In this document: in pieces, positions 21,390 to 38,757 of the stretch
Position numbering within the stretch: position 1 is the stretch's first letter
How the letters are laid out: every line of letters begins with the position of its first letter
DNA from: Muribaculaceae bacterium
GTDB taxonomy: Bacteria; Bacteroidota; Bacteroidia; Bacteroidales; Muribaculaceae
Assembly: GCA_016290325.1 (NCBI GenBank)
Contig: JAEETL010000004.1
Location: forward strand, 52,569-116,568
Reading direction: 5' to 3'
Length of the DNA: 64,000 bases
The notes under the pieces: generated by a model
The model's database searches: none
The model's input: only the letters and a program-made list of their open reading frames with translations
What the model was told of the DNA's origin: nothing
Position numbers and translations under genes: made by a program

Positions 21390-21420
21390 TTGCCCGCACC
21401 GACTTTTATTGTTATTTTTG
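21390..21420 (+). promoter_or_regulatory. Promoter of the DUF6377 regulator gene
   Basis: TTG at 21390-21392, a 20-nt spacer and TATTTTTG at 21413-21420 give a full -33/-7 pair. The ATG at 21439 follows 18 nt later. An in-frame upstream start at 21409 overlaps the promoter and is rejected. Confidence 0.7.
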
Positions 21421-21438
21421 CGACAAAAACTAAAATTG

Positions 21439-23091
21439 ATGAAAAACTATCCTAAAATTATAACTGTTCTACTTCTTCTGTTGCCATTCACCTTGTGGGC
21501 TCAGAGCGAGATAGATTTGGAACAAGTGTACCGGCAGCTCGATGAGGCCATCAGTAACACCGACAACTATATACAAGAGCGTGAACAACGCATCTTGAAA
21601 TATAGAACTGCGCTCGAAGTGACACAAGACCCTGACGGGCAGTATCAATTGTGCCGCCGCCTCTATGACGAATTCCAGCCTTACATGAATGACTCGGCTA
21701 TCTACTATATCGATCGCTGTATTTCACTGGCTGAAAAAATGGGGGACCATGCCCGCGCCGAACAATGCCAGCTGCAGTTGGCTTTCCAGTGTACCGAGTC
21801 GGGAATGTATCATGAGGCCATGGACATCTTGCAGGGTATCGATGAGACCAAAATCAGTGATGCCCAAAATCGTCAAAAGTACTACAGCACCCTTTCCCAC
21901 CTGTATACCGAGCTTGGATACTATTGCAAGGTGCCGCGCCTCCAGCGGGAGTACTATGCTAACGGTGACCGATATAGGGCGCTCATCGACACAGCGGTGT
22001 GCTCGAGAGATGAGGCACTGCAAATCAAGGAAATGCAGTGTTTTTCGGCTGGCGATGCTAAAGGGGCGCTTCAATTTAGCGACATGAGGCTCAAGCAAGT
22101 GAAAGAAGGCTCTCATGAGTATGCCATCGTCGCTTTTTACCGTTATTTGGACTATATTTTAATGGGCGATTCGGTACAAGCGCGTTACTGGGTCACACAG
22201 TCGGCCCTGAGCGATGTCAAGAATGCCATTATGGATCAGGGTGCCCTGTGGGAATTGGCCAATATGCTTATGGCCGATGGCGATGTGGACCGTGCTTATT
22301 TCTATATTCACTTCGCTTGGCAGTGCGCCAACAAGTTTAACACGGTCAAGCGTAATAACCAGATCTCGCCCGTGTTGACCTCTATTAGTGACAATTATGA
22401 GGCAACGCTCCAGCGTGCTAATCGCCAATTGCTCACCATGGTTGTGGTAGCAAGTCTGTTGGCAGCGTTGTTCCTGGCCATTCTGTTCTATAGCAATAGC
22501 CAGCGCAAGAAGCTTGCCAGGGCTCGTAATGAGTTGAGCGACAGTAATAAACAGTTGGCTCAATTGAACGGCCAGCTATCGGAATTGAATAGCCAGTTAG
22601 GCGAAACCAATATCAAGCTTAACGAGTCCAACCGCGTCAAGGACGAGTATGTGGGCCGGTTTATCCACCTGTGTTCTTTCTATATCGACCGCCTTGATGA
22701 GGTGCGCAAGCGTGTCAATAAAATGGTCAAGGGCAAAGACTTGGACGCCCTTTATAAGTTCACCGAGGGCAACGAGTTGAGGGACCAGAACCTCAACAAG
22801 CTGTTCGAGATGTTTGATAGCACCTTCCTGCATTTGTTCCCTAACTTCGTCAACGACTTCAATGCCCTGCTGAGCCCCGAAAGCCGCATAACACTCGAAG
22901 ATCCAAGCATCTTGAACACCGACTTGCGCATTTTCGCGCTCATCCGCCTGGGCATCGAGGACAGTAGCCGCATCGCTGAATTCCTGCACTACTCGGTCAA
23001 CACCATCTACAACTACCGGGCCCGAGTAAAGAATGGCGCCCTGGGTGACCGTGACACCTTTGAGACCCAGGTAAAATCCATCGGCATGTAA
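21439..23091 (+). CDS. TPR and transmembrane regulator with DUF6377-type C-terminus (probable PUL 1 regulator)
   Basis: A 550-residue protein. A signal peptide ending near LWAQ is followed by a helical, TPR-like periplasmic region to about residue 325, then one membrane segment (VVVASLLAALFLAILFYS). A coiled coil rich in NGQLSELNSQLGE follows. The cytoplasmic C-terminus matches what I know of DUF6377 proteins and ends in an HTH-like stretch, IAEFLHYSVNTIYNYRARVK. This single-polypeptide layout (periplasmic sensor, one TM segment, cytoplasmic DNA binding) resembles SusR-type regulators. It is transcribed divergently from susC, which supports control of the beta-glucan PUL. The DUF assignment is from memory of the motif and should be checked. 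Confidence 0.75.
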   Translation: MKNYPKIITVLLLLLPFTLWAQSEIDLEQVYRQLDEAISNTDNYIQEREQRILKYRTALEVTQDPDGQYQLCRRLYDEFQPYMNDSAIYYIDRCISLAEKMGDHARAEQCQLQLAFQCTESGMYHEAMDILQGIDETKISDAQNRQKYYSTLSHLYTELGYYCKVPRLQREYYANGDRYRALIDTAVCSRDEALQIKEMQCFSAGDAKGALQFSDMRLKQVKEGSHEYAIVAFYRYLDYILMGDSVQARYWVTQSALSDVKNAIMDQGALWELANMLMADGDVDRAYFYIHFAWQCANKFNTVKRNNQISPVLTSISDNYEATLQRANRQLLTMVVVASLLAALFLAILFYSNSQRKKLARARNELSDSNKQLAQLNGQLSELNSQLGETNIKLNESNRVKDEYVGRFIHLCSFYIDRLDEVRKRVNKMVKGKDLDALYKFTEGNELRDQNLNKLFEMFDSTFLHLFPNFVNDFNALLSPESRITLEDPSILNTDLRIFALIRLGIEDSSRIAEFLHYSVNTIYNYRARVKNGALGDRDTFETQVKSIGM

Positions 23092-24160: not shown

Positions 24161-24168
24161 TACATTTG
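24161..24168 (+). promoter_or_regulatory. Probable promoter -7 box of the NRPS operon
   Basis: TACATTTG matches TAnnTTTG and lies 28 nt before the first gene of the operon. No clear -33 element was seen. The preceding 100 nt contain no coding sequence. Confidence 0.5.
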
Positions 24169-24196: not shown

Positions 24197-26410
24197 ATGA
24201 AGATAAACGAGATATTTGATAGTGAGAAAAGGAGCAAGTTTGGGCGGGCACTTCCTGCGCTTGCCACTATCATTATTGCGATACTATTAATTGAGCTCAT
24301 TTCGCTGGTACAGTACCGATACACCCATCGCCTGATGGAAAATGAGTTGGATTATCGTACCGAGAGTGAGTTGACCCTCAAGTCTGTTCGCGTTAGGGGC
24401 CTGCTCAAATCCAGCGAGAAGATGGTGCGCAACTACTTGTGGCCTATTCAGCGGCAAATCAAACATCCTGATAAAATTTACGACATCATTAAGCGTATAG
24501 TTGTTACTAACCATGACGTGATGAGTAGCTTTGTGACTTTTAAGCCAGGCTATTATCCTGATCGTGAATATCTGTTTGAACCATGTGCCACCAGGCTTGG
24601 TGACAGCATCATGACCCTGCAGATGGCCAGCGAGAAGCATGACTATACTCAACGGGAGTTTTACCACAATGCTGTTGATAGTGGATTATCGAGCTGGAGT
24701 GACCCATATCCCGATGAAGACGCCAGCGGCGTGGTCGTAACGACCTATGCAGTTCCCCTCAAGGATGATGCTGGACAGACTGTCGGAGCCTTTGGCATCG
24801 ACCTGTCAGTTCAGGGAATCATCGATACCTTGAATACCAAGCACAATTATCCCTCGACATTTTTCCTCTTGCTCACCGAGGACGGCAAGCTCATTTCACA
24901 ACCCGACACGACTCACTCTCAACACGATGATGTGGCTATGGTAGTGAGCATGATCAATGACAGCACGTGTGAACGTGAGAGCAGTGCTTCGGGACTCACT
25001 AAGATCATTACATTCAACGACAAGGAGAAAGGAAAGGGCTATGCTTACTATGCGTTCATGAAGGGACGGCCCCACTGGCAGGTGGTGATGGTTTGCTATG
25101 ACGATGAGGTTTACGGCAAGTTGAACAAGATGCGCCGCATCATGCTGCTGATGTCGTTAGCTGCCTTATCGCTGCTGGGATACATCCTTTACCGTTTCAA
25201 TCGCAATGTGTCCAGGCTCCATGAATCTAAACTGAACAAGGAGCGTGCCGATAGTGAACTACGCGTTGCCCAAAATATTCAAGCCGAGATGCTACCCAGC
25301 GAGGACATCAATCGGCCCGATGTTGAGGTGAGCGGTAAACAGGTAACAGCGCTCGAGGTGGGCGGCGACTTGTATGACTACTTTATCCGTGACGAGAAAC
25401 TGTACTTTTGCATCGGCGACGTGAGTGGCAAGGGGGTGCCGTCATCACTGGTAATGGCGGTGGTTCACTCTTTTTTCCGCAGCCAATCCATGCACGAGAG
25501 TAATCCCGCCCACATCATGCAGGTAATCAACGAGATAGCCTGTGAGGGCAACAAGACCAACATGTTTGTCACCTTGTTCATTGGTGTGCTTGACTTGCCG
25601 ACGGGTCGCTTGCGCTACTGCAACGCGGGCCATGATGCTCCATTGCTCATCACCAGTGGCGTGAAACTCTTGCCTGTTAATGCCAATCTGCCAGCAGGCC
25701 TGTTCGACGATTTCAAGTATGTCCAGCAGCAAGCTAGTTTAGAAGACGGAACCACGCTGTTCCTATATACCGATGGCCTCACCGAAATGGCCGACCCAGA
25801 CAGACGCATGTTCGGCCTGCATCGTATCATCGACACGGCTCAAGATTGCTTGAAAGAAGGCAAGATAGCCCATGCAGTGCTGATGAACACCGTGTATGAG
25901 GAATCTAAACGATTTGCTAACGGTGCACAGCAGAGCGATGACCTGACCATGCTCACCATCAATTACCATCGTCCCGAGGAGGAATACGTGCTGGATGAAC
26001 AACTCAAGACGATCAATGATGTGCATCAAGTGCCAGAGGTCAACAAATTTGTCACATCGGTGGGCCAACGATTAAACCTTGAACCGTCGCTAGTGTCTCA
26101 ACTGATGCTGGCCGTTGAGGAGGCCGTGGTCAACGTGATGAACTATGCCTATCCAATAGGTACACAAGGTGACATCACCATCGAGGCCAAAGCAACCGGA
26201 CAATGGCTGAAGTTCATCATCTCAGATGAGGGAAAGGCCTTTGATCCGACCCAAGGCGGCAATGCCGATACCTCGCTCAGTGCCGAGGACCGTCCTATCG
26301 GCGGACTTGGCATCCTGTTGGTACGATCTTTGATGGATAGCATTAATTATGAGTACAACGGTAGCAAGAACGTGCTGACGTTGATGAAGGTATTAGGCGA
26401 CAAAAAGTAG
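24197..26410 (+). CDS. Membrane sensor: SpoIIE-type phosphatase fused to RsbW-like anti-sigma kinase
   Basis: A 737-residue two-TM protein. The first membrane segment is near residue 20-40. A dCache-like extracytoplasmic sensor (FGIDLSVQGIIDTL) follows, and the second membrane segment is near residue 315. The PPM/SpoIIE phosphatase has ELRVAQNIQAEMLP, the metal-binding GGDLYDYF, IGDVSGKGVPSSLVMA, FLYTDGLTEM and QSDDLTML. The last 130 residues are an HATPase_c of the RsbW/SpoIIAB type: EEAVVNVMNYAYP is the N-box, DEGKAFDP the G1-like box and IGGLGILLV the G2-like box. Opposing phosphatase and kinase activities toward a STAS protein are therefore in one chain. The STAS gene follows 53 nt downstream. 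Confidence 0.9.
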   Translation: MKINEIFDSEKRSKFGRALPALATIIIAILLIELISLVQYRYTHRLMENELDYRTESELTLKSVRVRGLLKSSEKMVRNYLWPIQRQIKHPDKIYDIIKRIVVTNHDVMSSFVTFKPGYYPDREYLFEPCATRLGDSIMTLQMASEKHDYTQREFYHNAVDSGLSSWSDPYPDEDASGVVVTTYAVPLKDDAGQTVGAFGIDLSVQGIIDTLNTKHNYPSTFFLLLTEDGKLISQPDTTHSQHDDVAMVVSMINDSTCERESSASGLTKIITFNDKEKGKGYAYYAFMKGRPHWQVVMVCYDDEVYGKLNKMRRIMLLMSLAALSLLGYILYRFNRNVSRLHESKLNKERADSELRVAQNIQAEMLPSEDINRPDVEVSGKQVTALEVGGDLYDYFIRDEKLYFCIGDVSGKGVPSSLVMAVVHSFFRSQSMHESNPAHIMQVINEIACEGNKTNMFVTLFIGVLDLPTGRLRYCNAGHDAPLLITSGVKLLPVNANLPAGLFDDFKYVQQQASLEDGTTLFLYTDGLTEMADPDRRMFGLHRIIDTAQDCLKEGKIAHAVLMNTVYEESKRFANGAQQSDDLTMLTINYHRPEEEYVLDEQLKTINDVHQVPEVNKFVTSVGQRLNLEPSLVSQLMLAVEEAVVNVMNYAYPIGTQGDITIEAKATGQWLKFIISDEGKAFDPTQGGNADTSLSAEDRPIGGLGILLVRSLMDSINYEYNGSKNVLTLMKVLGDKK

Positions 26411-26463
26411 AACTTTATATAGTGAGAACTGAGATAATAAACATCAATTTACAATAGTTAGAT

Positions 26464-26766
26464 ATGAAAACGATTATTGAAGAACATGACGAGAATATCC
26501 TCGTTACCATGATTGGTTCGCTCGACACTGCAGCAGCCATCGAAGCCGAACAAACGTTGAAACCTATCACCGAAGGCGAGGGCAAGGATATCGTGTTTGA
26601 GTGCAAGGAACTGGAGTATATCGCATCCAGTGGCCTGCGTATCTTGCTCGACGTGCTCAAGAAGACCAAGACTAAAGGTAAGAAGGTCACCCTGCGCAAC
26701 GTGAATGAAGATATCCAAAACGTGTTCAAAATCACGGGGTTCATCAACCTGTTTGAGTTTGAGTGA
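26464..26766 (+). CDS. STAS-domain anti-sigma factor antagonist
   Basis: A 100-residue single STAS domain, the length of SpoIIAA/RsbV proteins. The segment LEYIASSGLRILLDVLKK holds the conserved phosphorylatable serine (Ser55 or Ser56) and the GLR motif. By family knowledge its phosphorylation state is set by an RsbW-type kinase and a SpoIIE-type phosphatase, both present in the preceding gene product. No sigma factor lies within the operon, so the final target is unknown. Confidence 0.9.
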   Translation: MKTIIEEHDENILVTMIGSLDTAAAIEAEQTLKPITEGEGKDIVFECKELEYIASSGLRILLDVLKKTKTKGKKVTLRNVNEDIQNVFKITGFINLFEFE

Positions 26767-26773
26767 TTACCCC

Positions 26774-28147
26774 ATGGACATGAAACTCATCAATATCAGG
26801 CGATGGCTGTTGGCAGCACTCGCCTTGCCTGCACTCTTGGCGACGGGACAACCTTCTGGCGACACCATCCCTTCACTTCAAAACCAGTTGAGCGTGGATG
26901 TTCAGTTCTTGGGACGTGGCGAGTCCCGATATGGAGGACTACCGGAAGCGCCCAATGAGGTAGATGAGGATGAGAATAGCGATAAGGTGCCGAAGTCCAA
27001 TTTCGTGCTCAGCCGCACGCGTCTGCCCATCAACTTCAAGCGCGATTGGCTGGAAGTGCGTGTGACACCACAACACTCTGGCGTGTGGGGACAAGCGGGT
27101 AAAGGCGCCTTTAACATCTATGAGAGCTGGGCGAAACTGACTACTCGTTTCGGCCTGTTTGCCCAAGTGGGTCGTGTGGCACTCAACTATGACGATGAGC
27201 GCATCATCGGCTCTGATGATTGGGCAATGGCTTCATCGTCCCACGACGTGTTGCGCTTGGGATATGAAGGTCATGGCCACAAGGCTCACGTGATCCTGGC
27301 CTATAACCAGAACGCCGATGTAATGAACAGTGGCGGCTCTGTATACAAGGACGGCGCACAGCCTTACAAAATCATGCACACGGCGTGGTATCATTATGAC
27401 TTTCCGCGTTTCCCGTTAGGTGCTTCATTGATGTTCATGAACATCGGCATGCAGAGCACAGTGGATAATATCACAGTGGGGACTCACAAAGACAGAACCT
27501 GGTTTCAACATCTGGCCGGTGCCTATTTGTCCTTCCAACCAGAACACTGGAAAGCCGAAGCGTCATATTATAACCAATTTGGCCGAAACGAGACGGGTAC
27601 CAAAATCAAGGCATGGATGATGAGCGCCAAACTCACCTATATGCCGGCACCAAAATTAAATGCCACACTAGGCTATGATTACTTGAGCGGTGACAAGTAT
27701 TTTGCTGTTCCCACTGGACATAACATTGGTATGATACATCACGATGTCATCAAGGGTTTCAGCACCGTCTATGGCTCTCACCATAAGTTCTACGGAGCAA
27801 TGGACTTCTTCTATGTGAGCGCTTATCATCACGGCTTTACTCCTGGCCTCCAGAATGCCTATGTTGGTGCTACTTACAGCCCATTGAAGAACTGGACGGT
27901 AGATGCCAGTTATCACTACCTCTCCACTGCCACAGAACTCGATGATATGGACAGGACCCTAGGTCACGAGATTGAGTTTCAAACAAGCTACGGCATTAGC
28001 CGTGACGTGAGAGTGGCAGCGGGAACGTCGTTCATGTGGGGCAGCGAGACCATGGAACGCCTGAAACGATCCAAAACAAAAAACAGCATGCGATGGGGTT
28101 GGATCACGTTAAGTGTCAACCCACGCATCTTCACAACTAAATGGTAA
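26774..28147 (+). CDS. Outer-membrane beta-barrel protein, alginate-export/porin type
   Basis: I take the ATG at 26774 (457 residues); the open frame runs further upstream but overlaps the STAS gene. A signal peptide ends near LLATGQ. The body alternates aromatic and polar residues with recurring GRVALNYDD, YWAK-like and YHYL strands, and ends in ITLSVNPRIF plus four residues, consistent with a barrel. It resembles the alginate_exp family by motif such as LEVRVTPQHSGVW. It sits 7 nt after the STAS gene and 25 nt before the NRPS, suggesting a path across the outer membrane for the product or a precursor. That role is inferred only. Confidence 0.7.
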   Translation: MDMKLINIRRWLLAALALPALLATGQPSGDTIPSLQNQLSVDVQFLGRGESRYGGLPEAPNEVDEDENSDKVPKSNFVLSRTRLPINFKRDWLEVRVTPQHSGVWGQAGKGAFNIYESWAKLTTRFGLFAQVGRVALNYDDERIIGSDDWAMASSSHDVLRLGYEGHGHKAHVILAYNQNADVMNSGGSVYKDGAQPYKIMHTAWYHYDFPRFPLGASLMFMNIGMQSTVDNITVGTHKDRTWFQHLAGAYLSFQPEHWKAEASYYNQFGRNETGTKIKAWMMSAKLTYMPAPKLNATLGYDYLSGDKYFAVPTGHNIGMIHHDVIKGFSTVYGSHHKFYGAMDFFYVSAYHHGFTPGLQNAYVGATYSPLKNWTVDASYHYLSTATELDDMDRTLGHEIEFQTSYGISRDVRVAAGTSFMWGSETMERLKRSKTKNSMRWGWITLSVNPRIFTTKW

Positions 28148-28172
28148 TAACTAAATCCAAGAAACAAGTAAT

Positions 28173-31100
28173 ATGAAATTATCCGCGCCCTTATCAACCT
28201 CCCAATACGGAATCTATGTGGAATGTGTAAGCCACCAGGGAGAACCGTACTATAATTTGCCTTACATTTATGTTCTTGACGGTTCAGTGGATGGTCAACG
28301 GCTACTTGATGCTGTAGAAACAGCTTTTAAGGCTCACCCCACGTTGTTCACGCGCATCGCACTGAACGATGACGGCGAACCCATGCAAACGCTTGACATG
28401 GATAACGAGTCCTGGTCTCTCACTATCGAGGAAATCCAGGACATCGAGCAGGAAAAAACTCGCCTTGTGGAGCCATTTGACATTAACGGAGGCCGCCTGT
28501 TCCATGTTCATGTGATGCATGATAAAGACCACTATTACCTCTTTCTCGACTACCATCATATCATCGTGGACGGCACGTCGATGCAAATCATGCTGCAAGA
28601 CATTGATAAGGCTTACCGCGGTGAACCCATTGCGGCTGAGGAACTGACCCAGATGGATATCGCAAAGCAAGAGTCTTCCCAGCGCGAAACGCCCGCGTTT
28701 GCCGAGGCCAAGAAGTGGTATGCCGCCAACTTTGACTGCGACGACACGTTCACACAGTTCTTGCCCGATTTAGAGGAGGCTGAACACCGCGAGGATAGTG
28801 TGTTGCGCACGCTGTCGCTGGACCTGAGCCGTGTGGATGACTACTGCAAGAAAAACGGTGTGTTCAAGAGCACGCTATTCACTACCGCCTATGCCTTCCT
28901 GCTGGCCAAGTTCAACAATGAGCAGGAATCCTTATTCACGACAGTATATAACGGTCGCTCTGACAAGCGATTTGCCCATTCAGTGGGCATGGCAGTGAAA
29001 ACACTGCCTGTCTATGCCAAATTCACAGCCGAAACGACTGTGCATGACCTGCTGCTCAGTGGACAAGAACAGATGAGCGGATGTCGCGAGCATGAGTTGT
29101 ACTCTTATGCCGACGTGATGACCGACCTTAACCTCCAGAGCAACTCGATGTTTGCATGGCACGGAATGTTGTTTGACAACGAGACGATGGGCGGAAAGCA
29201 CATGAAGACCGTGCGCATCGGTAACAGCACGCTGGATGCCTCGTTCTACATGAAAGTCTTTATCCAGGACAATAAGGTGCAGGCTAAGGCCGAATATAAC
29301 GCTAATGAGTATTCCCGTGAGTTCATCAGCCAGATTCTGGAGAGCTATGAGGCCGTGCTCGAGGGCTTCCTTACCCAGGAATACCTGTGCGACATTGATA
29401 TGGCAACGGCAGGCCAGGTGGCTATCCTTGACGGCTTTAACCCAGGCGAATTGGATTATGACAACAGCCAAACCATCGTATCGATGTTCCGTCAGCAGGT
29501 CAAGGCTACGCCCGATGCTGTTGCCGTTGTCTATATGGACAAGCGGTTCACCTATGCCCAGGTGGACGAGATTAGCGACCGCATTGCTGCCTACGTTGCT
29601 AAAAAGGGCTTGGGCGCTGAGGATGTCGTGTCGGTACTCATTCCTCGCTGCGAGTGGATGCCCATTGCCTCAATAGGCGTGCTGAAGGCCGGCTGTGCTT
29701 ATCAACCCCTTGATCCGAGTTACCCCAAGGAGCGACTCAACTTCATGATGCAGGACGCCAGTGCCAAACTGCTCATTGCCGATGAGGAGTTGCGTCCCAT
29801 CGTTGACGAATATAAGGGTGAAGTATTGCTGACTAAAGATATCATGGCATTGCCCGCATCGGCAGCGCCGCAAGTGACCATCACGCCTGATCAGCTGTTT
29901 ATTCTGCTCTATACTTCAGGTTCAACGGGTATTCCTAAAGGGTGTCAGCTCACTCATGGCAACCTTGTTGCTTTTTGCCACTGGTACCATCACATGTTTA
30001 ATCTCAATCCAGGATGCAAAGTGGCCGCCTATGCCAGCTATGGTTTTGACGCTAACATGATGGATACCTACCCCGCGTTGACTTGTGGTGCGACGTTATA
30101 TATCGTTCCCGAGGAAATGCGTCTGGATCTCATCGCTCTCAATGAATACTTTGAGCAGAACGGCATCACCCATTCGTTCATGACAACACAAGTGGGCTAC
30201 CAGTTTGCTACCAGTGTTGAGAACCACTCGTTGCAGTATCTCTCGACAGGCGGCGAGAAACTGGCATCACTCACGCCACCGCAAGGCATCAAATTCTATA
30301 ACCTTTATGGTCCCACCGAGTCAACAGTTTTCATTACCTATTACCATGTAGATAAGAAAATGAAAGAGATTCCCATTGGCAAGGCGCCGAAAAACGTGCG
30401 CTTGTATATCGTTGACCCGCAAGGTCATCGCCTGCCGGTGGGAGCAGCTGGCGAATTGTGGGTTGCTGGTCCCCAGGTGAGCCGTGGCTACCTGAACCGT
30501 CCCGATAAAACCGCCGAGGTCTATATCAATAACCCATTTACCACCGAAGAGAAATATGCGCGCGTTTACCGCACGGGTGACATTGTGCGCTATCTGCCCT
30601 CGGGCGACATCCAGTTTGTGGGCCGTCGTGACGGACAGGTGAAGATTCGCGGTTTCCGCATCGAGCTCAAGGAGGTCGAGGGCATCATCCGCGAGTTCCC
30701 CGGCATCAAGGATGCTACGGTGCAGGCCTTTGATGAGGAAGGTGGCGGCAAGTTCATCGCTGCCTACATCGTGAGTGATGAGACCATCGACATCGAGGCG
30801 TTGAACAACTTCATCATGGACGAGAAACCGCCCTATATGGTTCCCGCCGTTACGATGCAGATCGATGCCATTCCATTGAACCAGAATCAGAAGGTGAACA
30901 AGCGCGCCCTGCCCAAGCCTGAAAAGAAGGCCGCTGCTGTCGAGAATGTCAATGTGCCGATGAATGTGCTGGAGCAGGAATTGCACCAGATTGTTGCCGA
31001 CATCGTCAATAATAACGACTTTGGGGTGACCACGGTATTGGGCTACGCTGGTCTGACCTCCATTTCGGCCATCAAGCTGGCTGTCCAGATCAATAAACGC

Positions 31101-34100
31101 TATGGTGTAACGCTCGACTCTAAGAGCTTGGTGAAAACAGGTACAATTCAGTCAATCGAGAATGAAATACTGAAAGCGATGCTTGCCGGAGGCGCTAAAC
31201 CTGCCGCTGAAACTACCAAGGCTAAGGCTATCACAAGCGCACCGCTGTCTTATGCCCAGACTGGTGTTTATTTCGATTGCCTGAAGAATCCCGCATCCAC
31301 AATTTATAACATCCCTTACTTGCTCTCTTATCCCGAGGGAACTGATGCTAATCTCCTTGCCGATGCCGTGAAGCGCGTTATTGAGGCTCATCCCGAGTTG
31401 AGTGTCCACTTCACGACTCAGGGCGACGCTATCATTCAGACAACTGACGATAGTGTGCCTGTTGAGGTGCCCATCACCAAGATGAGCGAGGAAGAGCTCG
31501 CTAAATATAAGAAAGAGTTTGTACGTCCCTTCAACTTGCAGAAGGCTCCCCTCTATCGTGCTGAGGTGGTCACCACTCCTGCAGGCATCTATCTGTTGCT
31601 GGATGTTCACCATCTGGTGTTTGACGGTGGCTCAGCCGACCTGCTCATTCGCCAACTCAATGCGGCGATTGAGGGCAAGGCTGTTGAAAAGGAATCTTAT
31701 AACTATCTTGATTTTATTACCGATCAACAGGCAGCCGAGGATACTGATGCTTTCAAGGCTTCACAGCAATTCTTTGCCGAGAAACTCCAGACCTGTGAGG
31801 GCGCTAGCGAAATTCCTGCCGACTTACCAAAGAGTGATGAACAAGGTTACATCGGTGAGGCCGTGTGCCCTGCCGATCTAGAAAAGGCGACAGCTTTCTG
31901 CCGTCAGCAGGAAATCACGCCAGCCCATTTGTTCCTTGCCGCCACCTCCTATGTGGTGTCTCGATATACCAATAACCGAGATGTTTATCTGTGTACCGTC
32001 AGCAGCGGCCGCAGCAACCTCAAGATTGCCGATACGGTGGGCATGTTTGTCAATACCCTTGCATTGGGCTTGAGCATTGATGACGTGACTGTTGAGCAAT
32101 TCTTGAAGAATGCAAGCGAGACATTTGACCAAACACTGCGTCATGAGGATTATCCCTTTGCCCGCATTGCCACCGACTATGGCTTCAGGCCCGCGATAGC
32201 CTACGCTTATCAGGTTGGCGTACTCTCGCAATACACGGTTAACAGCAAGCCCATCGGCCAAGAGTTGCTGGAACTTAATGTTCCCAAGTTCAAAATCAAT
32301 ATCAAGATAGAATCACGAGGAGTTGTCGTGCAATATGATGACTCGATATACAGTGAGCGTGTGGGCCGAGGCCTGGCCGAGAGCATTGTTGCTGTAGCCA
32401 CGAGGATGATGGAGCAGCCGCAAGCCAAATTACGTCAGTTATCTATCGTGAGCCCGGCTCAGGAGGAGGAATTGAGCCACCTGCGCCAAACGGCTACAGG
32501 CGAAGCCCCCTTCACATTGTTCCATGAGTGCATTGGCCATTTTGCTCAGGTACAGCCTGACCAAGAGGCCCTGGTGGCTATAGACAACCGCTTTACCTAT
32601 AAGGAGGTTGACGAGATTACTAGCTGCATCGCCGCTGCATTAAGGAAACGCGGTGTTCATGAGCGCGACCGTGTGGCACTGCTGCTGCCCCGCACGAGCA
32701 GGCTCATTCTCGCCTTGTTTGGCGTGTTGAAGTCGGGTGCTGCCTACATTCCCTGCGACCCTGAGTATCCCGCTGACCGCGTGAAACTTATCCTTGAGGA
32801 TAGTGAGGCACGTTACATTATCACCACTGCCGACCGTATGGATACCGTGCCTGCCGACAAAGCGATTGATGTCGAGGAACTCATCGGTGATGACAATGAT
32901 GGAACCATCGTGATCGATATCCAGCCTGATGACTTGGCTTATCTGATTTACACCAGCGGTTCAACGGGTCGTCCTAAGGGTGTGATGCTGCATCACCGCG
33001 GCATCTGCAATTACCTGTATGGCCATCCGGCCAATGTGTTTGCTAATGGTGTGATGACCGATGCCAAGCGCATCATGAGCGTGACGACCATCTCGTTTGA
33101 TGCCGCCCTGCAAGATATCGGCACTGCCTTCTTTAATGGCAAGACGCTTGTTGTCGCCACCGAGGAACAGGCCAATAACCCGCTTGATTTGGCTCGGCTC
33201 ATCAACGAGGAGCACGTCAACATGGTGTCAGGAACGCCGTCACGATGGATGACGTGGCTCACGAGTGAGGACTTCTGTGATGCCATCAGCCGCATTGATA
33301 TTGTGCGAGCAGGTGGTGAGAAATTCTCTGACCAGCTGCTTGACCAGCTCCGTAAGGTTACAAAGGCCCGCATTTTCAACTGCTATGGCCCCACCGAGAT
33401 CACGGTGGCTTCAAACAACAAGGAATTGACCCATGCTACCATGGTGACCGTGGGCAAACCCCAGTTGAACGTCGTTGAGTTTATCGTGGATCAAGACGGC
33501 AATGAGTTGCCTGTCGGTGTCGTTGGTGAACTCTACATTGGCGGACGTGGCGTGGCTCATGGCTATAATAATCTGGATGAAATGACCCGCGAGCGGTTTG
33601 TGGACTACCACGGCACGCGCATCTACAAGTCGGGTGACTATGCCAAATGGCTTCCCGATGGTGATGTTGTCATCCTGGGACGTACCGACCACCAGATTAA
33701 GTTGCGTGGTCTGCGCATCGAGTTGGGCGAGATCGAAAATGTGATGCTCAAGGTTGATGGTCTCAAAAAGGTTGTCATCCTCATACGCAAAATCAATGAC
33801 AAAGAGCACTTGTGTGCATACTACACAGCCGACCGCGAGATTAAACCCGAGGATTTGAAGGCTGAAATTTCCAAGAGCCTGACCCAGTACATGGTGCCCA
33901 CGGCCTATCTGCAGCTGAAGGAGATGCCGATGACGCCTAACGGAAAAACTGATGTTAAGGCTCTGCCTGAGCCCGAGTTGGCTATCAGTTCGGCCTATGT
34001 GGCTCCAGCCAATGACACCGAACGTGTCTTCTGCGACATCTTTGCCGATATCCTCCAGATGGACAAGGTGGGCGCTACAGACAACTTCTTTGAACTGGGC

Positions 34101-35417
34101 GGCACCTCGCTCGTCGTGACGCGTGTCATCATTGAGGCCGACAAGGCGGGAATGCATGTCGCCTATGGTGATGTATTTGCCAATCCCACACCCCGTAAAC
34201 TGGCCCGCTTGATTTCGGGCGATAGCGCTAATGCGGCCGACGATGAGATTACAGGGTTTGACTATACCGCTATCAACAACCTGTTGCAGGGCAACACGCT
34301 GGCGGCATTCCGTCGTGGTGAACGCCAGCAGTTGGGCAACGTGCTGCTGACTGGTGCGACGGGCTACTTGGGTATTCACATCCTGCGTGAGCTCATCGAC
34401 TCTGATGCTGAGAACATCTATTGCCTCGTGCGTGGCAAGAACCTGGAGGCTGCCGAAAGTCGCTTGCGTACCCTGCTGTTCTACTATTTCTCGGATGCTT
34501 TCAAGGACTTGTTCGGCAAGCGCCTGCACATCGTTCTTGGTGATGTGACCAGCGATTTTGCTGAGGGTCTGAGGGTCGATACGGTATTTAACTGTGCGGC
34601 CATCGTCAAGCACTTCAGCGAGGGTACCGAGATCGAGGATGTGAACATCGGTGGTGCTCAACGCTGTGTGGACTACTGTGTCAAGACAGGCGCCAAGCTT
34701 GTGCATGTTTCCACGGCAAGTACCCGCGGCCTGTGGGCCGGCGAGGTCAAGGATGATGTCTTCACCGAGCAACGTCTCTACATGGGGCAATTCTTGGGCA
34801 ACAAGTACATCTATTCCAAGTTCATGGCCGAGCGATTGATTCTCAATGCCGTGGCACAGCATGGATTGAATGCCAAAATCATGCGTGTGGGTAACTTGGC
34901 AGCACGCTCGACCGATGGTGAGTTCCAGGCCAACTTTGCCACTAATTCATTTATGGGCCGCATCAAGGTCTATAACATGCTGGGTTGCTGTCCTTATAGC
35001 ATGCGTAATAAGCAAGTTGAATTCTCACCCATCAACGAGGTGGCCAAGGCCATCCTCCTGCTTGCGACGACACCAAGTTCATGCTGCGTCTTCCATCCTT
35101 ACAACATCCACACCCAGTTCCTCGGTGACGTGCTTCAGGGCCTTATCACGGTGGGCGACGGTGTGCGCTTTGTTGAGCAGGAAGAATTTGCTGAAGCCTT
35201 GGAGCGGGCCAAGGAAGACCCCCAAAAGGCTAAACTGATGTCCTCGCTGCTGGCCTATCAGGATATGGCTCACGGACAAAAGACTACCGATGTGAAACGT
35301 GACAATGACTACACGACCCAGGTGCTCTATCGCCTGAACTTCGCTTGGTCTCCCACGTCGTGGGATTATGTGGAGCGCATGCTCACCACCATCGGCGGAT
35401 TTGGATTCTTTGAATAA
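28173..35417 (+). CDS. Two-module nonribosomal peptide synthetase with terminal reductase (C-A-T-C-A-T-R)
   Basis: A 2414-residue NRPS. Condensation domain 1 has HHIIVDG at residues 128-134. Adenylation domain 1 has YTSGSTGIPKG at 580 and YGPTES. Carrier 1 has AGLTSIS, with Ser963 the predicted phosphopantetheine site. Condensation domain 2 has HHLVFDG at 1146. Adenylation domain 2 has YTSGSTGRPKG at 1593 and YGPTEI. Carrier 2 has LGGTSL with Ser1979. From about residue 2055 to the end is a thioester reductase with LLTGATGYLGIHIL and the YSKFMAE catalytic pair. It should join two amino acids, with the first N-acylated because a condensation domain leads, and release an aldehyde or alcohol. 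By alignment to GrsA the A-domain codes read DAMFSGLVFK and DAQSVACVAK. The first looks hydrophobic; the second I cannot predict. Confidence 0.95.
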   Translation: MKLSAPLSTSQYGIYVECVSHQGEPYYNLPYIYVLDGSVDGQRLLDAVETAFKAHPTLFTRIALNDDGEPMQTLDMDNESWSLTIEEIQDIEQEKTRLVEPFDINGGRLFHVHVMHDKDHYYLFLDYHHIIVDGTSMQIMLQDIDKAYRGEPIAAEELTQMDIAKQESSQRETPAFAEAKKWYAANFDCDDTFTQFLPDLEEAEHREDSVLRTLSLDLSRVDDYCKKNGVFKSTLFTTAYAFLLAKFNNEQESLFTTVYNGRSDKRFAHSVGMAVKTLPVYAKFTAETTVHDLLLSGQEQMSGCREHELYSYADVMTDLNLQSNSMFAWHGMLFDNETMGGKHMKTVRIGNSTLDASFYMKVFIQDNKVQAKAEYNANEYSREFISQILESYEAVLEGFLTQEYLCDIDMATAGQVAILDGFNPGELDYDNSQTIVSMFRQQVKATPDAVAVVYMDKRFTYAQVDEISDRIAAYVAKKGLGAEDVVSVLIPRCEWMPIASIGVLKAGCAYQPLDPSYPKERLNFMMQDASAKLLIADEELRPIVDEYKGEVLLTKDIMALPASAAPQVTITPDQLFILLYTSGSTGIPKGCQLTHGNLVAFCHWYHHMFNLNPGCKVAAYASYGFDANMMDTYPALTCGATLYIVPEEMRLDLIALNEYFEQNGITHSFMTTQVGYQFATSVENHSLQYLSTGGEKLASLTPPQGIKFYNLYGPTESTVFITYYHVDKKMKEIPIGKAPKNVRLYIVDPQGHRLPVGAAGELWVAGPQVSRGYLNRPDKTAEVYINNPFTTEEKYARVYRTGDIVRYLPSGDIQFVGRRDGQVKIRGFRIELKEVEGIIREFPGIKDATVQAFDEEGGGKFIAAYIVSDETIDIEALNNFIMDEKPPYMVPAVTMQIDAIPLNQNQKVNKRALPKPEKKAAAVENVNVPMNVLEQELHQIVADIVNNNDFGVTTVLGYAGLTSISAIKLAVQINKRYGVTLDSKSLVKTGTIQSIENEILKAMLAGGAKPAAETTKAKAITSAPLSYAQTGVYFDCLKNPASTIYNIPYLLSYPEGTDANLLADAVKRVIEAHPELSVHFTTQGDAIIQTTDDSVPVEVPITKMSEEELAKYKKEFVRPFNLQKAPLYRAEVVTTPAGIYLLLDVHHLVFDGGSADLLIRQLNAAIEGKAVEKESYNYLDFITDQQAAEDTDAFKASQQFFAEKLQTCEGASEIPADLPKSDEQGYIGEAVCPADLEKATAFCRQQEITPAHLFLAATSYVVSRYTNNRDVYLCTVSSGRSNLKIADTVGMFVNTLALGLSIDDVTVEQFLKNASETFDQTLRHEDYPFARIATDYGFRPAIAYAYQVGVLSQYTVNSKPIGQELLELNVPKFKINIKIESRGVVVQYDDSIYSERVGRGLAESIVAVATRMMEQPQAKLRQLSIVSPAQEEELSHLRQTATGEAPFTLFHECIGHFAQVQPDQEALVAIDNRFTYKEVDEITSCIAAALRKRGVHERDRVALLLPRTSRLILALFGVLKSGAAYIPCDPEYPADRVKLILEDSEARYIITTADRMDTVPADKAIDVEELIGDDNDGTIVIDIQPDDLAYLIYTSGSTGRPKGVMLHHRGICNYLYGHPANVFANGVMTDAKRIMSVTTISFDAALQDIGTAFFNGKTLVVATEEQANNPLDLARLINEEHVNMVSGTPSRWMTWLTSEDFCDAISRIDIVRAGGEKFSDQLLDQLRKVTKARIFNCYGPTEITVASNNKELTHATMVTVGKPQLNVVEFIVDQDGNELPVGVVGELYIGGRGVAHGYNNLDEMTRERFVDYHGTRIYKSGDYAKWLPDGDVVILGRTDHQIKLRGLRIELGEIENVMLKVDGLKKVVILIRKINDKEHLCAYYTADREIKPEDLKAEISKSLTQYMVPTAYLQLKEMPMTPNGKTDVKALPEPELAISSAYVAPANDTERVFCDIFADILQMDKVGATDNFFELGGTSLVVTRVIIEADKAGMHVAYGDVFANPTPRKLARLISGDSANAADDEITGFDYTAINNLLQGNTLAAFRRGERQQLGNVLLTGATGYLGIHILRELIDSDAENIYCLVRGKNLEAAESRLRTLLFYYFSDAFKDLFGKRLHIVLGDVTSDFAEGLRVDTVFNCAAIVKHFSEGTEIEDVNIGGAQRCVDYCVKTGAKLVHVSTASTRGLWAGEVKDDVFTEQRLYMGQFLGNKYIYSKFMAERLILNAVAQHGLNAKIMRVGNLAARSTDGEFQANFATNSFMGRIKVYNMLGCCPYSMRNKQVEFSPINEVAKAILLLATTPSSCCVFHPYNIHTQFLGDVLQGLITVGDGVRFVEQEEFAEALERAKEDPQKAKLMSSLLAYQDMAHGQKTTDVKRDNDYTTQVLYRLNFAWSPTSWDYVERMLTTIGGFGFFE

Positions 35418-35437
35418 CAATTAAAAATACAATAAAA

Positions 35438-36787
35438 ATGAGAACTATTTCAGTTGAGGAGGCCAAACGCCTCGTTGCCGAGGGCGAACAAATGACCATT
35501 GCCCAGCGTGCCGAAGTGAGACGTCAGCGTCTGCGTGAACTGGTGAACTATGCAAGGGAAAACTCCCCTTATTTTGCCAAACTGTATGCCAATATTCCTG
35601 AGGACTTTGAACTCACTGATTTGCCTGCCACCGAAAAACCGGTGCTTGTCGCCAACTTCAACGATTGGGTAACAGACCGGCGCATCAACAAGGAGATGGT
35701 GAGCAAGTATCTGGAACGCGATGCAGAAAAAGACCGTTCGCTGCTGCTGGATGAGTACACCGCCCTCCACACCTCGGGCAGCACAGGCAATCCGTTGCTC
35801 ATGGTGCGTGATGACTATCACAACAAGATCCATGCGCAACTCATCGGGCAACGCTTGCTGAAGGGCACTACCCCCGACATGCTGTCCATTGCCAAGCATC
35901 GCCGTGCCTCGGTCATCTCCATGGCTAAGGGCGCCTCGAGTTATAGCGCATTCCTCCGCATCAAGGCCAATAATCCCGAATATGCACACAATCTACTGGG
36001 CATCAATGCGATAGAAAGCGTTGAAAGTATTGTAAAGAAACTCAACGATTTTCAGCCCGAGACCATGGCCGGCTATCCCTCAATGGTGGTCCAACTGGCA
36101 ATTGAGCAGTTGCAAGGTCGCCTTCATCTCTCGCTCAAGCATCTGGTCACTTCGGCCGAGACCCTTACCGAAGAGAACTGGCATTTGCTGCGAGAAGCGT
36201 TCCAGTGTCCCGTGGGCAATAACTACTGCATGACCGAGGGTGGCGAGGTTGCTATGACGCACAACTGTCCGCATCTCCACATCAATGATGATTGGGTTAT
36301 TGTCGAACCCGTGGATGCCGATCGTAATCCTATTGATGACCCTGAAGAATGGTCTCAAGGCGTTTTCATCACCGACCTCAGCAACTTCATTCAGCCCGTG
36401 ATTCGTTACTATGTAAACGACATGGTGCGCATCGTCCCGTCACATGAGTCATGCTGCAATATGCCCATCCTCAAGGTGCAGGGCCGCACGTTCCCCGTGT
36501 TCACCGCAGCCGGCAAGAACTATAGTGTGGCAGGACTGTATTCCAAAGCTAAAGTGTGGCCAGATCTCGTGAATTTCCAGTTTGTCCAGGTCGACGACAC
36601 CACTTTAGAGGTGAGAGGCGTGTGCAAGAGCGACCCAGCCCAAGTGTTATCGTCGTTGTGCGTCCGTCTCCAAGACTTTATGACTGAGATGGGCTGCCCC
36701 GAGGCCCGTTTCACCTGGTCTAATGCCCCCCTCATTCCCAACAAGCGAGGCGGCAAGATACCTCTCTATATCAACAACCAAGATTAA
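35438..36787 (+). CDS. PaaK-like adenylate-forming acyl/aryl-CoA ligase
   Basis: A 449-residue phenylacetate-CoA ligase family protein. The ATP-binding loop LHTSGSTGNPLLMVRDD is clear. Other family features are MAGYPSMVVQLA, a CMTEGG segment in the position of the usual Y-x-x-TE motif, and a C-terminal RGGKIPLYI. It lies 20 nt after the NRPS. The first NRPS domain is a condensation domain with no loading module, so this ligase may activate the carboxylic acid that acylates the first amino acid, as acyl-CoA. It carries no carrier domain, so free CoA or a trans-acting carrier would be the acceptor. The acid is unknown. Confidence 0.82.
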   Translation: MRTISVEEAKRLVAEGEQMTIAQRAEVRRQRLRELVNYARENSPYFAKLYANIPEDFELTDLPATEKPVLVANFNDWVTDRRINKEMVSKYLERDAEKDRSLLLDEYTALHTSGSTGNPLLMVRDDYHNKIHAQLIGQRLLKGTTPDMLSIAKHRRASVISMAKGASSYSAFLRIKANNPEYAHNLLGINAIESVESIVKKLNDFQPETMAGYPSMVVQLAIEQLQGRLHLSLKHLVTSAETLTEENWHLLREAFQCPVGNNYCMTEGGEVAMTHNCPHLHINDDWVIVEPVDADRNPIDDPEEWSQGVFITDLSNFIQPVIRYYVNDMVRIVPSHESCCNMPILKVQGRTFPVFTAAGKNYSVAGLYSKAKVWPDLVNFQFVQVDDTTLEVRGVCKSDPAQVLSSLCVRLQDFMTEMGCPEARFTWSNAPLIPNKRGGKIPLYINNQD

Positions 36788-36809
36788 GTAGAAAAGTGTT
36801 TTTATCGTT

Positions 36810-38129
36810 ATGACTAACGAAGAAAAATCTGCCCTCTCCACTCAATTCAACCGTTTCCTCTGGTCATCGGTGCTCATCACCTTGTCTGGATGCCTAGGAA
36901 ACGTTGTCGATGGTATTATTGTGGGCAACCTCATCGGACAGGACGGTGTGAGCGCCATCAACCTGTCCAAACCCGTTGTGCAACTTTACATGACCCTCAA
37001 CCTGCTATTGGGTATGGGGGCAAGTATGATTGTGGGCCGAGCCCTTGGCAAGAACGATAAGAAACGTGCTGCATACGTTTTCACGTTAGCAGTTATCATC
37101 AACTTGGCGATTGGTTTGGGTTTCACCCTCGTCGGCATGACTGCCAATTCCAATGTGGCCCATCTGCTGTGCAACCATGACCAACTTTTAAAGCAATCTG
37201 AGGAATACCTTTTGCCCATGCTTTTGGGTGCACCCGCTTACATGATGATGTGGACGTGCAGCGCCATGATCAGTGTCGATGGCAGTCCACGGTTGGCATC
37301 CATGGCCATCGTTATCGACAACGCGGTCAACTTGTTGCTCGACCTCGTATTCATTTCCTGGTTCGGATGGGGTATCACGGGATCATCCACAGCAACTGTT
37401 GTGGGTCATCTTGTGGGCATTGCCATCATGATGCGCCACTTCAAGTACAAGAACAACACCCTGAGCCTCTCCCTCAAGCATGATCAGCCGGAATTCCTGA
37501 ACATCGTCTCCCAGGGAGCGCCGCTTGCAGTGGCATCAGTCTGCTTGACGCTGTTGCTGCTGACGGCAAACACCACCGTGTTGTCTACATTGGGACGCAC
37601 AGGTATTTTTGCCTTCTCGGTTTGCATGAACCTATTGCAGATATATAACCTATATGTTGCCGGTACTTGCCGCACACTGCAATCGCTTGGTGCCATCCAA
37701 GCGGGTTCTGGTAACGATGAGGCATTCTCCTATGTCGTGCACAAATCACTGCGGTTCATCACCATTTCAATGGGCATCACCTGTCTGTTGGTTCTGATTT
37801 GGCCTCAGGTCATCACCATCCTGTTTGGTGCCGAAGATGCTGCTTCGACCGTCGAGTGCAACCGTGCCCTGAGGATTTTTGCCTTGAGTTTCATTCCCTT
37901 CTGCTACATCTATGTGCTGATGATTATCTATAAACTCTATGGTCAGCACAGCATGGCATTGTTCATCTCGTTCGCGTTGTCGCTCACGGTGATTCCCGTG
38001 TTGTGGATCATGGCCAAGACGATGCCCCAGTACATTTGGTACAGCTACCTTATTGCCTACATGATTGAGGCTATCGTCATCTTCGCTCTGCACAAGGGGC
38101 GCCACATCCAATTCCAGTTAAAGGGGTGA
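36810..38129 (+). CDS. MATE-family efflux transporter
   Basis: A 439-residue polytopic membrane protein with about 12 predicted segments in two homologous halves. Family-typical features are FLWSSVLITLSGCLGNVVDG, LLGMGASMIVGRALGKND, and the second-half GAPLAVASVCLTLLLLTAN. MATE proteins export small organic compounds using proton or sodium gradients. Position between the ligase and the phosphopantetheinyl transferase in one operon suggests it moves the peptide product across the inner membrane. The stop overlaps the next start by 4 nt. Confidence 0.9.
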   Translation: MTNEEKSALSTQFNRFLWSSVLITLSGCLGNVVDGIIVGNLIGQDGVSAINLSKPVVQLYMTLNLLLGMGASMIVGRALGKNDKKRAAYVFTLAVIINLAIGLGFTLVGMTANSNVAHLLCNHDQLLKQSEEYLLPMLLGAPAYMMMWTCSAMISVDGSPRLASMAIVIDNAVNLLLDLVFISWFGWGITGSSTATVVGHLVGIAIMMRHFKYKNNTLSLSLKHDQPEFLNIVSQGAPLAVASVCLTLLLLTANTTVLSTLGRTGIFAFSVCMNLLQIYNLYVAGTCRTLQSLGAIQAGSGNDEAFSYVVHKSLRFITISMGITCLLVLIWPQVITILFGAEDAASTVECNRALRIFALSFIPFCYIYVLMIIYKLYGQHSMALFISFALSLTVIPVLWIMAKTMPQYIWYSYLIAYMIEAIVIFALHKGRHIQFQLKG

Positions 38130-38698
38130 TCTACTATGATGACCATATCTGGGATTTTGACCTGCAACAAGCATTAGCCGAGGTCAGCCCGCAACGGCGT
38201 GAATATGCCTTGCGGTATCGCCAAGAGCGCGACCAGCGCCTCTGTGTGGCGGTTTATAGGCTCTTGCATCGGGCTTTGCGGCTCGAGTATGGCATAGATG
38301 AGGCCCCAGTGTTTAACTATGGCGCTCACAGTAAACCTGTGCTCCAGGGTCGCCCCGACATTCATTTTAGCTTGAGCCACTGTCATGAGACGGTGGCTTG
38401 TGCCGTGAGCGATCATCCAGTGGGAATCGATATCGAGTCGACCGAGCACTACACGATTGATGTGGCGCGCCATGTGATGAACGACGATGAGATCAGGCAG
38501 ATTGAAGCGTCAGCCCAGTCTGCAGTCACGTTCACCCGCTTGTGGACGATGAAGGAGAGCCTCTACAAGTTGACGGGTGACGATAACAATGGCGACATCC
38601 GTCACATGCTTGACAAGGCACCTCCTGTCACTTTTGAGACAGTCGTCTTTTCCCACGGCGTCTGCACGGTTTGCCGCAGCATGGTTGACAACGAATAA
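38126..38698 (+). CDS. Sfp-type 4'-phosphopantetheinyl transferase
   Basis: A 190-residue protein starting with GTG inside the MATE stop (GTGA overlap); the only nearby ATG, at 38136, is out of frame. It carries the family signatures HSKPVLQG, FSLSHCHE, VGIDIES and WTMKESLYKLTG. Sfp-type enzymes transfer phosphopantetheine from CoA to carrier-domain serines, here presumably Ser963 and Ser1979 of the NRPS. Its presence makes the cluster self-sufficient for carrier activation. It is the last gene of the operon. Confidence 0.93.
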   Translation: MIYYDDHIWDFDLQQALAEVSPQRREYALRYRQERDQRLCVAVYRLLHRALRLEYGIDEAPVFNYGAHSKPVLQGRPDIHFSLSHCHETVACAVSDHPVGIDIESTEHYTIDVARHVMNDDEIRQIEASAQSAVTFTRLWTMKESLYKLTGDDNNGDIRHMLDKAPPVTFETVVFSHGVCTVCRSMVDNE

Positions 38699-38725: not shown

Positions 38726-38757
38726 TTTGTAAATGAGAGGAAAAAGTGTTATCTTTG
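38726..38757 (+). promoter_or_regulatory. Promoter of the aldo/keto reductase gene
   Basis: TTTG at 38726-38729, a 20-nt spacer and TATCTTTG at 38750-38757 make a full Bacteroidetes promoter. It lies 28 nt after the PPTase stop, so the reductase has its own promoter even if some read-through from the NRPS operon occurs. A 59-nt leader follows. Confidence 0.75.

Follow-up and report, generated by a model that had tools for sequence, protein, structure and literature searches.

Peptide-aldehyde synthetases of gut Clostridia are already known, and so are archaeal clusters in which a nonribosomal peptide synthetase (NRPS) is accompanied by a phosphatase, an anti-sigma antagonist and MatE. Here we compare with them a seven-gene NRPS operon at positions 24197-38698, plus strand, of a 64,000-nucleotide (nt) stretch of DNA from a Muribaculaceae bacterium (contig JAEETL010000004.1, positions 52,569 to 116,568; the whole stretch is called the window). 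The archaeal example was described in 2010 in Methanobrevibacter ruminantium M1, where mru0066-mru0071 comprise serine phosphatases, an anti-sigma-factor antagonist and MatE beside a two-module NRPS whose first module contains a condensation (C) domain (PMC2812497, available part). The set is from the rumen and, compared by description only, shares with the window's operon the phosphatase, the STAS-type antagonist, the NRPS and MatE. It differs in belonging to an archaeon; the available part of the paper mentions no outer-membrane barrel, and reports the phosphopantetheinyl transferase (PPTase) in a separate cluster, mru0514 (PMC2812497). The terminal domain of the archaeal NRPS is called a thioesterase in the main text and a thioester reductase in the legend of Fig. 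S8, and of Syntrophomonas wolfei (swol1094) only the NRPS is compared in the part of the paper available (PMC2812497). A relative of the NRPS is reported, in a source available in part, from M. millerae.

The ruminopeptin (rup) system of Ruminococcus bromii and the NRPSs of gut Clostridia make dipeptide aldehydes, and in this they resemble the product predicted here (PMC12327764, PMC10794557, both in part). They are Firmicutes systems and, again by description, the available parts of these papers mention no such switch, barrel or exchange of ligase and MATE exporter. Rumen NRPS clusters, those of Bacteroidota included, have been inventoried in bulk (PMC8241843, available part). Our searches of open-licence papers turned up no description of the window's operon, nor of two features set out below, the coupling of the switch to the NRPS across genomes and the pairing of ligase and exporter.

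The operon proves to be real, conserved and under selection. We propose, with moderate confidence, that its two-module NRPS would make an N-acylated dipeptide aldehyde under private SpoIIE/RsbW-STAS control, with export via a MATE transporter and an AlgE-like barrel. The original prediction, which is partly borne out, held that such an operon in Bacteroidales would be a distinct system; the combination as such is not peculiar to Bacteroidales, being present in a rumen archaeon (PMC2812497, available part).

Conservation of the operon

All seven open reading frames (ORFs) are intact and collinear on the plus strand, and the spacings from gene 1 to gene 7 are 53, 13, 25, 20, 22 and -4 nt, the barrel start being taken as 26780. 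Pfam and NCBIfam matches agree with the gene content first proposed: a SpoIIE/RsbW sensor, a STAS protein, a barrel, a C-A-T-C-A-T-R NRPS, a PaaK-like ligase, a MATE exporter and a PPTase. When species genomes were scanned with the window's NRPS, 227 stretches encoding a relative were found. The best 80 were kept and their operon context was checked; all 80 records are titled metagenome-assembled genome or uncultured. Judged by record labels, most of these relatives are of ruminant origin. Host labels occur in 63 of the 80 titles: RGIG in 24 (each naming a ruminant), RUG or Tb.RUG, which denote rumen sets, in 36, and rumen, reindeer or sheep sets in 3; the other 17 titles give no host. The nearest relative among the loci (L057, labelled RUG373) has an NRPS 96% identical to the window's.

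The gene order of the operon recurs far beyond chance. Sixty-five loci have flanks of 4.5 kb or more upstream and 2 kb or more downstream; 45 of them hold the SpoIIE, STAS, barrel and MATE genes in their expected positions, and in 60 SpoIIE and STAS occur together within 10 kb upstream of the NRPS. Singly, within 4.7 kb upstream, STAS is present in 61/66 loci, SpoIIE in 57/66 and the barrel in 51/66. Downstream, MATE is found within 2.5 kb in 60/76, a PPTase match within 4 kb in 38/76, and PaaK in 7/76. Of 72 loci, 52 have the barrel as the first gene 5′ of the NRPS (within 600 nt) and 13 have STAS there; in the other 7 it is none of the five genes tested. Four loci (L102, L104, L105 and L106) have a shuffled order, with SpoIIE and STAS still inside the locus. 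The five genes flanking the window's operon, on the other hand, are each found in only 0 to 3 of the 80 loci. Thus the neighbours of the NRPS are retained in related genomes while the flanks differ, and the view of a self-contained operon holds for SpoIIE, STAS, barrel and MATE; the PaaK-like ligase, which had been counted as a member, is accessory (7/80 loci).

In the window's own genus, 12 of the 16 genomes searched have a full or near-full NRPS. In an order-wide draw of 295 genomes, 17 matched with an E value no higher than 1e-100. Besides G000, only G460 in that draw exceeds 50% identity (52%) near full length, and G290 covers the NRPS at 30%. No close relative was found on plasmids: 2949 records matched, all below 60% identity, the best listed at 29%.

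The probable SpoIIE/RsbW-STAS switch

The first gene (24197..26410, plus strand) encodes a membrane sensor in which an MCP-like PDC domain (PF22673), a SpoIIE-type PP2C phosphatase (PF07228) and an RsbW-like HATPase_c_2 kinase (PF13581) are joined in one chain. Its catalytic motifs are near-invariant in an alignment of proteins of at least 650 residues (aa): the phosphatase TDG motif is present in 67/67, and the E and N of the kinase N-box in 66/66. The second gene (26464..26766, plus strand) encodes a lone STAS protein of the anti-sigma-antagonist type, above cut-off for both PF01740 and TIGR00377. The motif YIASSGLR is found in 67 of 75 aligned STAS proteins, and the Ser in its SSG context is the predicted phosphorylatable residue. 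In the PDC domain (24476-24820), Y, W, PY and D are nearly invariant in 67 proteins, positions that resemble those of amino-acid-binding dCache domains.

In our proposal the PDC domain would sense a periplasmic ligand, and the fused kinase and phosphatase would set the phosphorylation state of STAS. The unphosphorylated STAS would permit production or export, either via a transcription partner or by itself binding to the NRPS or the exporter. A described parallel is SypE/SypA of Vibrio fischeri, where a dual serine kinase/phosphatase acts on a lone STAS protein of unknown target. That pair controls biofilm, and a reference title calls SypE a response regulator, whereas the input here is a periplasmic PDC domain (PMC8256260, available part).

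The switch follows the NRPS at the level of whole genomes. In the window's genome (91.7% complete), HATPase_c_2 and STAS each give a single match at E up to 0.001, and both matches fall within the operon. Among 198 Muribaculaceae genomes, with the NRPS called at 1900 bits or more, HATPase_c_2 reaches at least 50 bits in 18/18 genomes with the NRPS and in 6/180 others (Fisher p = 9e-21, kinship being ignored and the limit chosen post hoc). Two of these six (G004, G007, G035, G144, G156 and G164), namely G156 and G164, carry NRPS fragments. At Pfam's own cut-off 37 of the 198 genomes match, 18/18 with the NRPS and 19/180 others; the additional matches score about 27-34 bits and are mostly in long frames. 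STAS frames linked to the NRPS are about 100-130 aa long among the matches listed, and the others, of about 420-650 aa, fit transporters. No STAS match was found in G095 and G173, two members of the genus without the NRPS. The pair lies about 54 kb from the NRPS in G154 and on a different contig in G146, and therefore the pairing is kept at the genome level even where adjacency has been lost. Two NRPS genomes have a second strong HATPase_c_2 match (G193:C40:9089-9466, in an 804-aa frame, and G079:C99:10287-10661, in a 757-aa frame).

Since the kinase domain tracks the NRPS across the 198 genomes, and since the window's genome has one kinase and one STAS protein, both in the operon, the evidence points to a private switch, perhaps one that works without a sigma factor. 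In the classical route, the kinase domain would bind a sigma factor that STAS sets free, which would switch on transcription of the operon. The score of STAS above the cut-off of TIGR00377, a model for anti-sigma factor antagonists, and the intact ATP-site motifs of the RsbW-like domain suit that route. The operon, however, which is the only part of the genome that was searched for sigma genes, has none, and no second HATPase_c_2 match is present in the genome, complete to the degree given above. Archaea, as is well established, lack sigma factors. Because a phosphatase/antagonist set nevertheless adjoins an NRPS in an archaeon (PMC2812497, available part), an obligatory sigma-factor output seems less likely, and we consider the classical route doubtful.

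The assembly line and its predicted product

The NRPS (28173..35417, plus strand; 2414 aa) has two Condensation, two AMP-binding (A) and two PP-binding (T) domains and one NAD_binding_4 domain by Pfam, the last a terminal reductase (R). The order of domains thus combines a first-module C domain with a terminal R domain. The first-module condensation domain, C1 (28188..29462, plus strand), is predicted to be N-acylating and has an intact HHIIVDG; its matches in the Protein Data Bank (PDB) were not decisive on the C subtype. A1 (29466..30920, plus strand) yields the code DAMFSGLVFK, for a predicted aliphatic residue. C2 (31236..32474, plus strand; Pfam and motif check) is followed by A2 (32541..33971, plus strand), whose code DAQSVACVAK gives no confident substrate prediction. 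The code positions follow PheA numbering, and substrates were predicted from the codes by eye only; neither domain is known to match an established code exactly.

For comparison we took 81 NRPSs of 2300-2600 aa, namely that of the window, those of 78 loci and an additional copy each from L055 and L072, without fragments or forms with three modules. All six motifs tested are intact in the window's NRPS. The HHxxxDG of C2, the Ser of T1 and of T2, and the GxxGxxG and YxxxK of R are each intact in 81/81, and the HHxxxDG of C1 is intact in 76/81; no sign of a dead enzyme was found. Codes of the DAMFSG type recur in A1 of 66/81 and of the family DAQS[VCA]ACVAK in A2 of 68/81. Enlarged relatives also exist, in L085, L102, L103 and L104 (2977-3024 aa) and in L072 (3493 aa), and their loci likewise have SpoIIE/STAS or barrel genes. 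Two NRPS genes lie near each other in L033 and L072. In L055 a second, different two-module NRPS (L055:11346-18578, codes DVEFSAGILK and DAEGTGVDDK), running past the contig end, stands directly after PaaK and a MATE of the second type defined below.

The five domains tested (C1, A1, C2, A2 and R) are under purifying selection, with a median omega (dN/dS) of 0.05-0.09 over 11 close pairs; that of C1 is 0.09, as against 0.05-0.07 in the other four. C1 is the least alike of the five in 2306 of the 2350 pairs with a core identity of 0.70-0.95, and its identity is below that of C2 in 2317 of them. Distant pairs (core 0.50-0.60) reverse the trend, with a mean identity of 0.51 for C1 and 0.45 for C2. 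A natural reading of the near-group divergence is that a conserved dipeptide core would be combined with a variable acyl group, although plain relaxed constraint on C1 may also account for it. Positive selection on C1 has no support at an omega of about 0.09.

C1 would attach an acyl group to the aliphatic residue loaded by A1, C2 would join the residue loaded by A2, and R would release the chain as an aldehyde. The R domain (34260..35414, plus strand) has as its nearest solved relative 6vtj (235 bits), before the R domain of AusA (130 bits); 6vtj is from a rumen-methanogen NRPS. Because the first module has a condensation domain with its motif intact here and in 76/81, the product is more probably an N-acylated peptide aldehyde than the precursor of a pyrazinone. 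The rup pathway is said to be N-acylating.

Some R domains reduce their substrate to alcohols. The operon could accordingly make an N-acyl dipeptide alcohol, via a four-electron reduction by R or with the help of a later reductase. The proximity of R to 6vtj leaves room for this. However, the second-nearest R domain is that of AusA, which reportedly releases aldehydes, and no additional reductase gene recurs alongside the operon in related loci. We consider the alcohol improbable.

The original prediction was of a dipeptide aldehyde with a free amine, cyclising to a pyrazinone, which would require that C1 be inactive or that the acyl group be removed later. AusA and AusB of the Staphylococcus aureusimine system are indeed the best NCBIfam models for the window's NRPS and PPTase; the match to the AusA model (NF047350) is 1168.1 bits, below the cut-off of 2500. 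The products of AusA are reportedly pyrazinones, and AusA is said to be without a first C domain. Gut dipeptide aldehydes, moreover, were isolated as pyrazinones (PMC12327764, available part). Against this stand the intact motif in 76/81, the purifying selection on C1, and the lack of a deacylase domain among the operon's proteins by Pfam and NCBIfam. The C domain of the first module thus shifts the prediction to the N-acylated aldehyde, and the pyrazinone is the least probable of the products weighed here.

Probable export and ligase exchange, and the limits of the operon

The barrel gene (26780..28147, plus strand) could start as far back as 26705, but this longer ORF would run into the STAS gene; 26780 is the signal-peptide start and the likely one. 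The protein matches Alginate_exp (PF13372) at 33.5 bits (gathering cut-off 25.2), as do 30/30 aligned homologues at E up to 0.001. It is closest to AlgE, the alginate exporter of Pseudomonas, at 14% identity, with OprD/Occ porins scoring almost equally; a sequence search of the PDB with the barrel gave chance hits only. The MATE exporter (36810..38129, plus strand) matches PF01554 at 95.1 bits (cut-off 24.9) and TIGR00797 at 130.3, below the cut-off of 147.4. An envelope export route is plausible with these two genes in the operon: MATE would carry the product to the periplasm and the barrel would carry it out of the cell. The last gene, for an Sfp-type PPTase (38126..38698, plus strand), has a GTG start and overlaps MATE by 4 nt. 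It matches PF01648 (ACPS) at 46 bits (gathering cut-off 25) and the AusB model at 65.7, below the cut-off of 225.

The PaaK-like adenylate-forming ligase (35438..36787, plus strand) stands between the NRPS and MATE. Its nearest model is TIGR02304 (94.9 bits, cut-off 251.9), TIGR02155, the model of the phenylacetate-CoA ligase PaaK, giving 30 bits (cut-off 646.3), and a database search at E up to 0.001 gives 844 relatives. Adenylation motifs are kept in 8 aligned sequences out of 10 PaaK rows.

The ligase accompanies one lineage of exporter. In a quick MATE tree (no bootstrap; 67 rows with both an NRPS of 2300-2600 aa and a MATE), 53 type-1 MATEs form one group (SH-aLRT 100), none with PaaK. 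The remainder holds all 9 PaaK rows, the window's type-2 MATE among them, together with L026, L044, L065 and L082, and L105 as a long-branch outlier. The NRPS tree has 66 rows, L105 being removed for its very long branch; L102, which has PaaK and a three-module NRPS, is in neither tree. Presence of PaaK requires 7 changes on the NRPS tree but 3 on the MATE tree, and MATE type requires 10 on the NRPS tree. When PaaK was shuffled on the MATE tree, a control made for that tree only, the mean was 8.6 changes and 0/500 shuffles were as low as 3.

The comparison with the sister species of locus L057 localises the difference. In a 150-nt identity profile the two DNAs are about 92% identical on both sides of a block (35001..37850, plus strand) that runs from the end of the R domain, its start falling at about 35,000-35,400, through most of MATE. 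Within it PaaK is extra in the window and most of MATE is different. The two also diverge upstream of about 24,350, a region that covers the DNA before the operon and the first codons of the sensor. Ligase and exporter were probably exchanged as one block. In the window's species the ligase would further modify the product, and so alter what the pump must carry, with the exporter probably replaced together with it. As a supplier of the acyl group for C1 the ligase is unsupported, C1 being 97% identical between the window and the PaaK-free sister. Loci with PaaK mostly have loci without it as their closest relatives in C1, and in the pairs L039/L052 and L040/L055 C1 is as close as the rest of the NRPS.

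A predicted promoter element of the operon, TACATTTG (24161..24168, plus strand), fits TAnnTTTG, the Bacteroidetes-type -7 consensus. This motif occurs within 120 nt 5′ of SpoIIE in 40/64 loci, as against 30/640 in-gene 120-mers, a control of coding and not intergenic DNA. A general scan was not used (13 promoter-like sites vs 15.5 in shuffles; 17 terminator-like sites vs 11.6, sd 3.9). At the other end, the operon most likely stops at the PPTase gene, because the gene that follows at 38823, for an aldo/keto reductase, is preceded by a -7-like element of its own (TATCTTTG, 38750-38757) and is found in 1/80 related loci. On the same grounds that reductase is ruled out as a tailoring gene. Upstream, a SusR-type gene (3/80 loci) and a gene of unknown type (0/80) are likewise ruled out as parts of the operon. 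The former (21409-23091) encodes a glycan-utilisation regulator of the SusR family, above the NCBIfam cut-off; a relative lies 3′ of the operon, on the opposite strand, in L042, L060 and L089.

A bolder version of the scheme is that the switch, free of any sigma factor, acts directly on the NRPS or the exporter to gate the peptide-aldehyde assembly line; that the cassette is common to rumen bacteria and archaea; and that Bacteroidales retool its output by swapping ligase and matched exporter as a block. We hold this to be unlikely.

In closing, if the proposal is true, a group of gut Bacteroidales, mostly of ruminants, has in common a class of small peptide that is probably reactive. With 227 stretches encoding an NRPS relative, such relatives are frequent enough that proteolysis or signalling in the rumen could be affected. 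A private switch would offer a testable case of STAS action with no sigma factor in sight, and sister species that differ in ligase and exporter form matched pairs from which the ligase's effect may be read directly.

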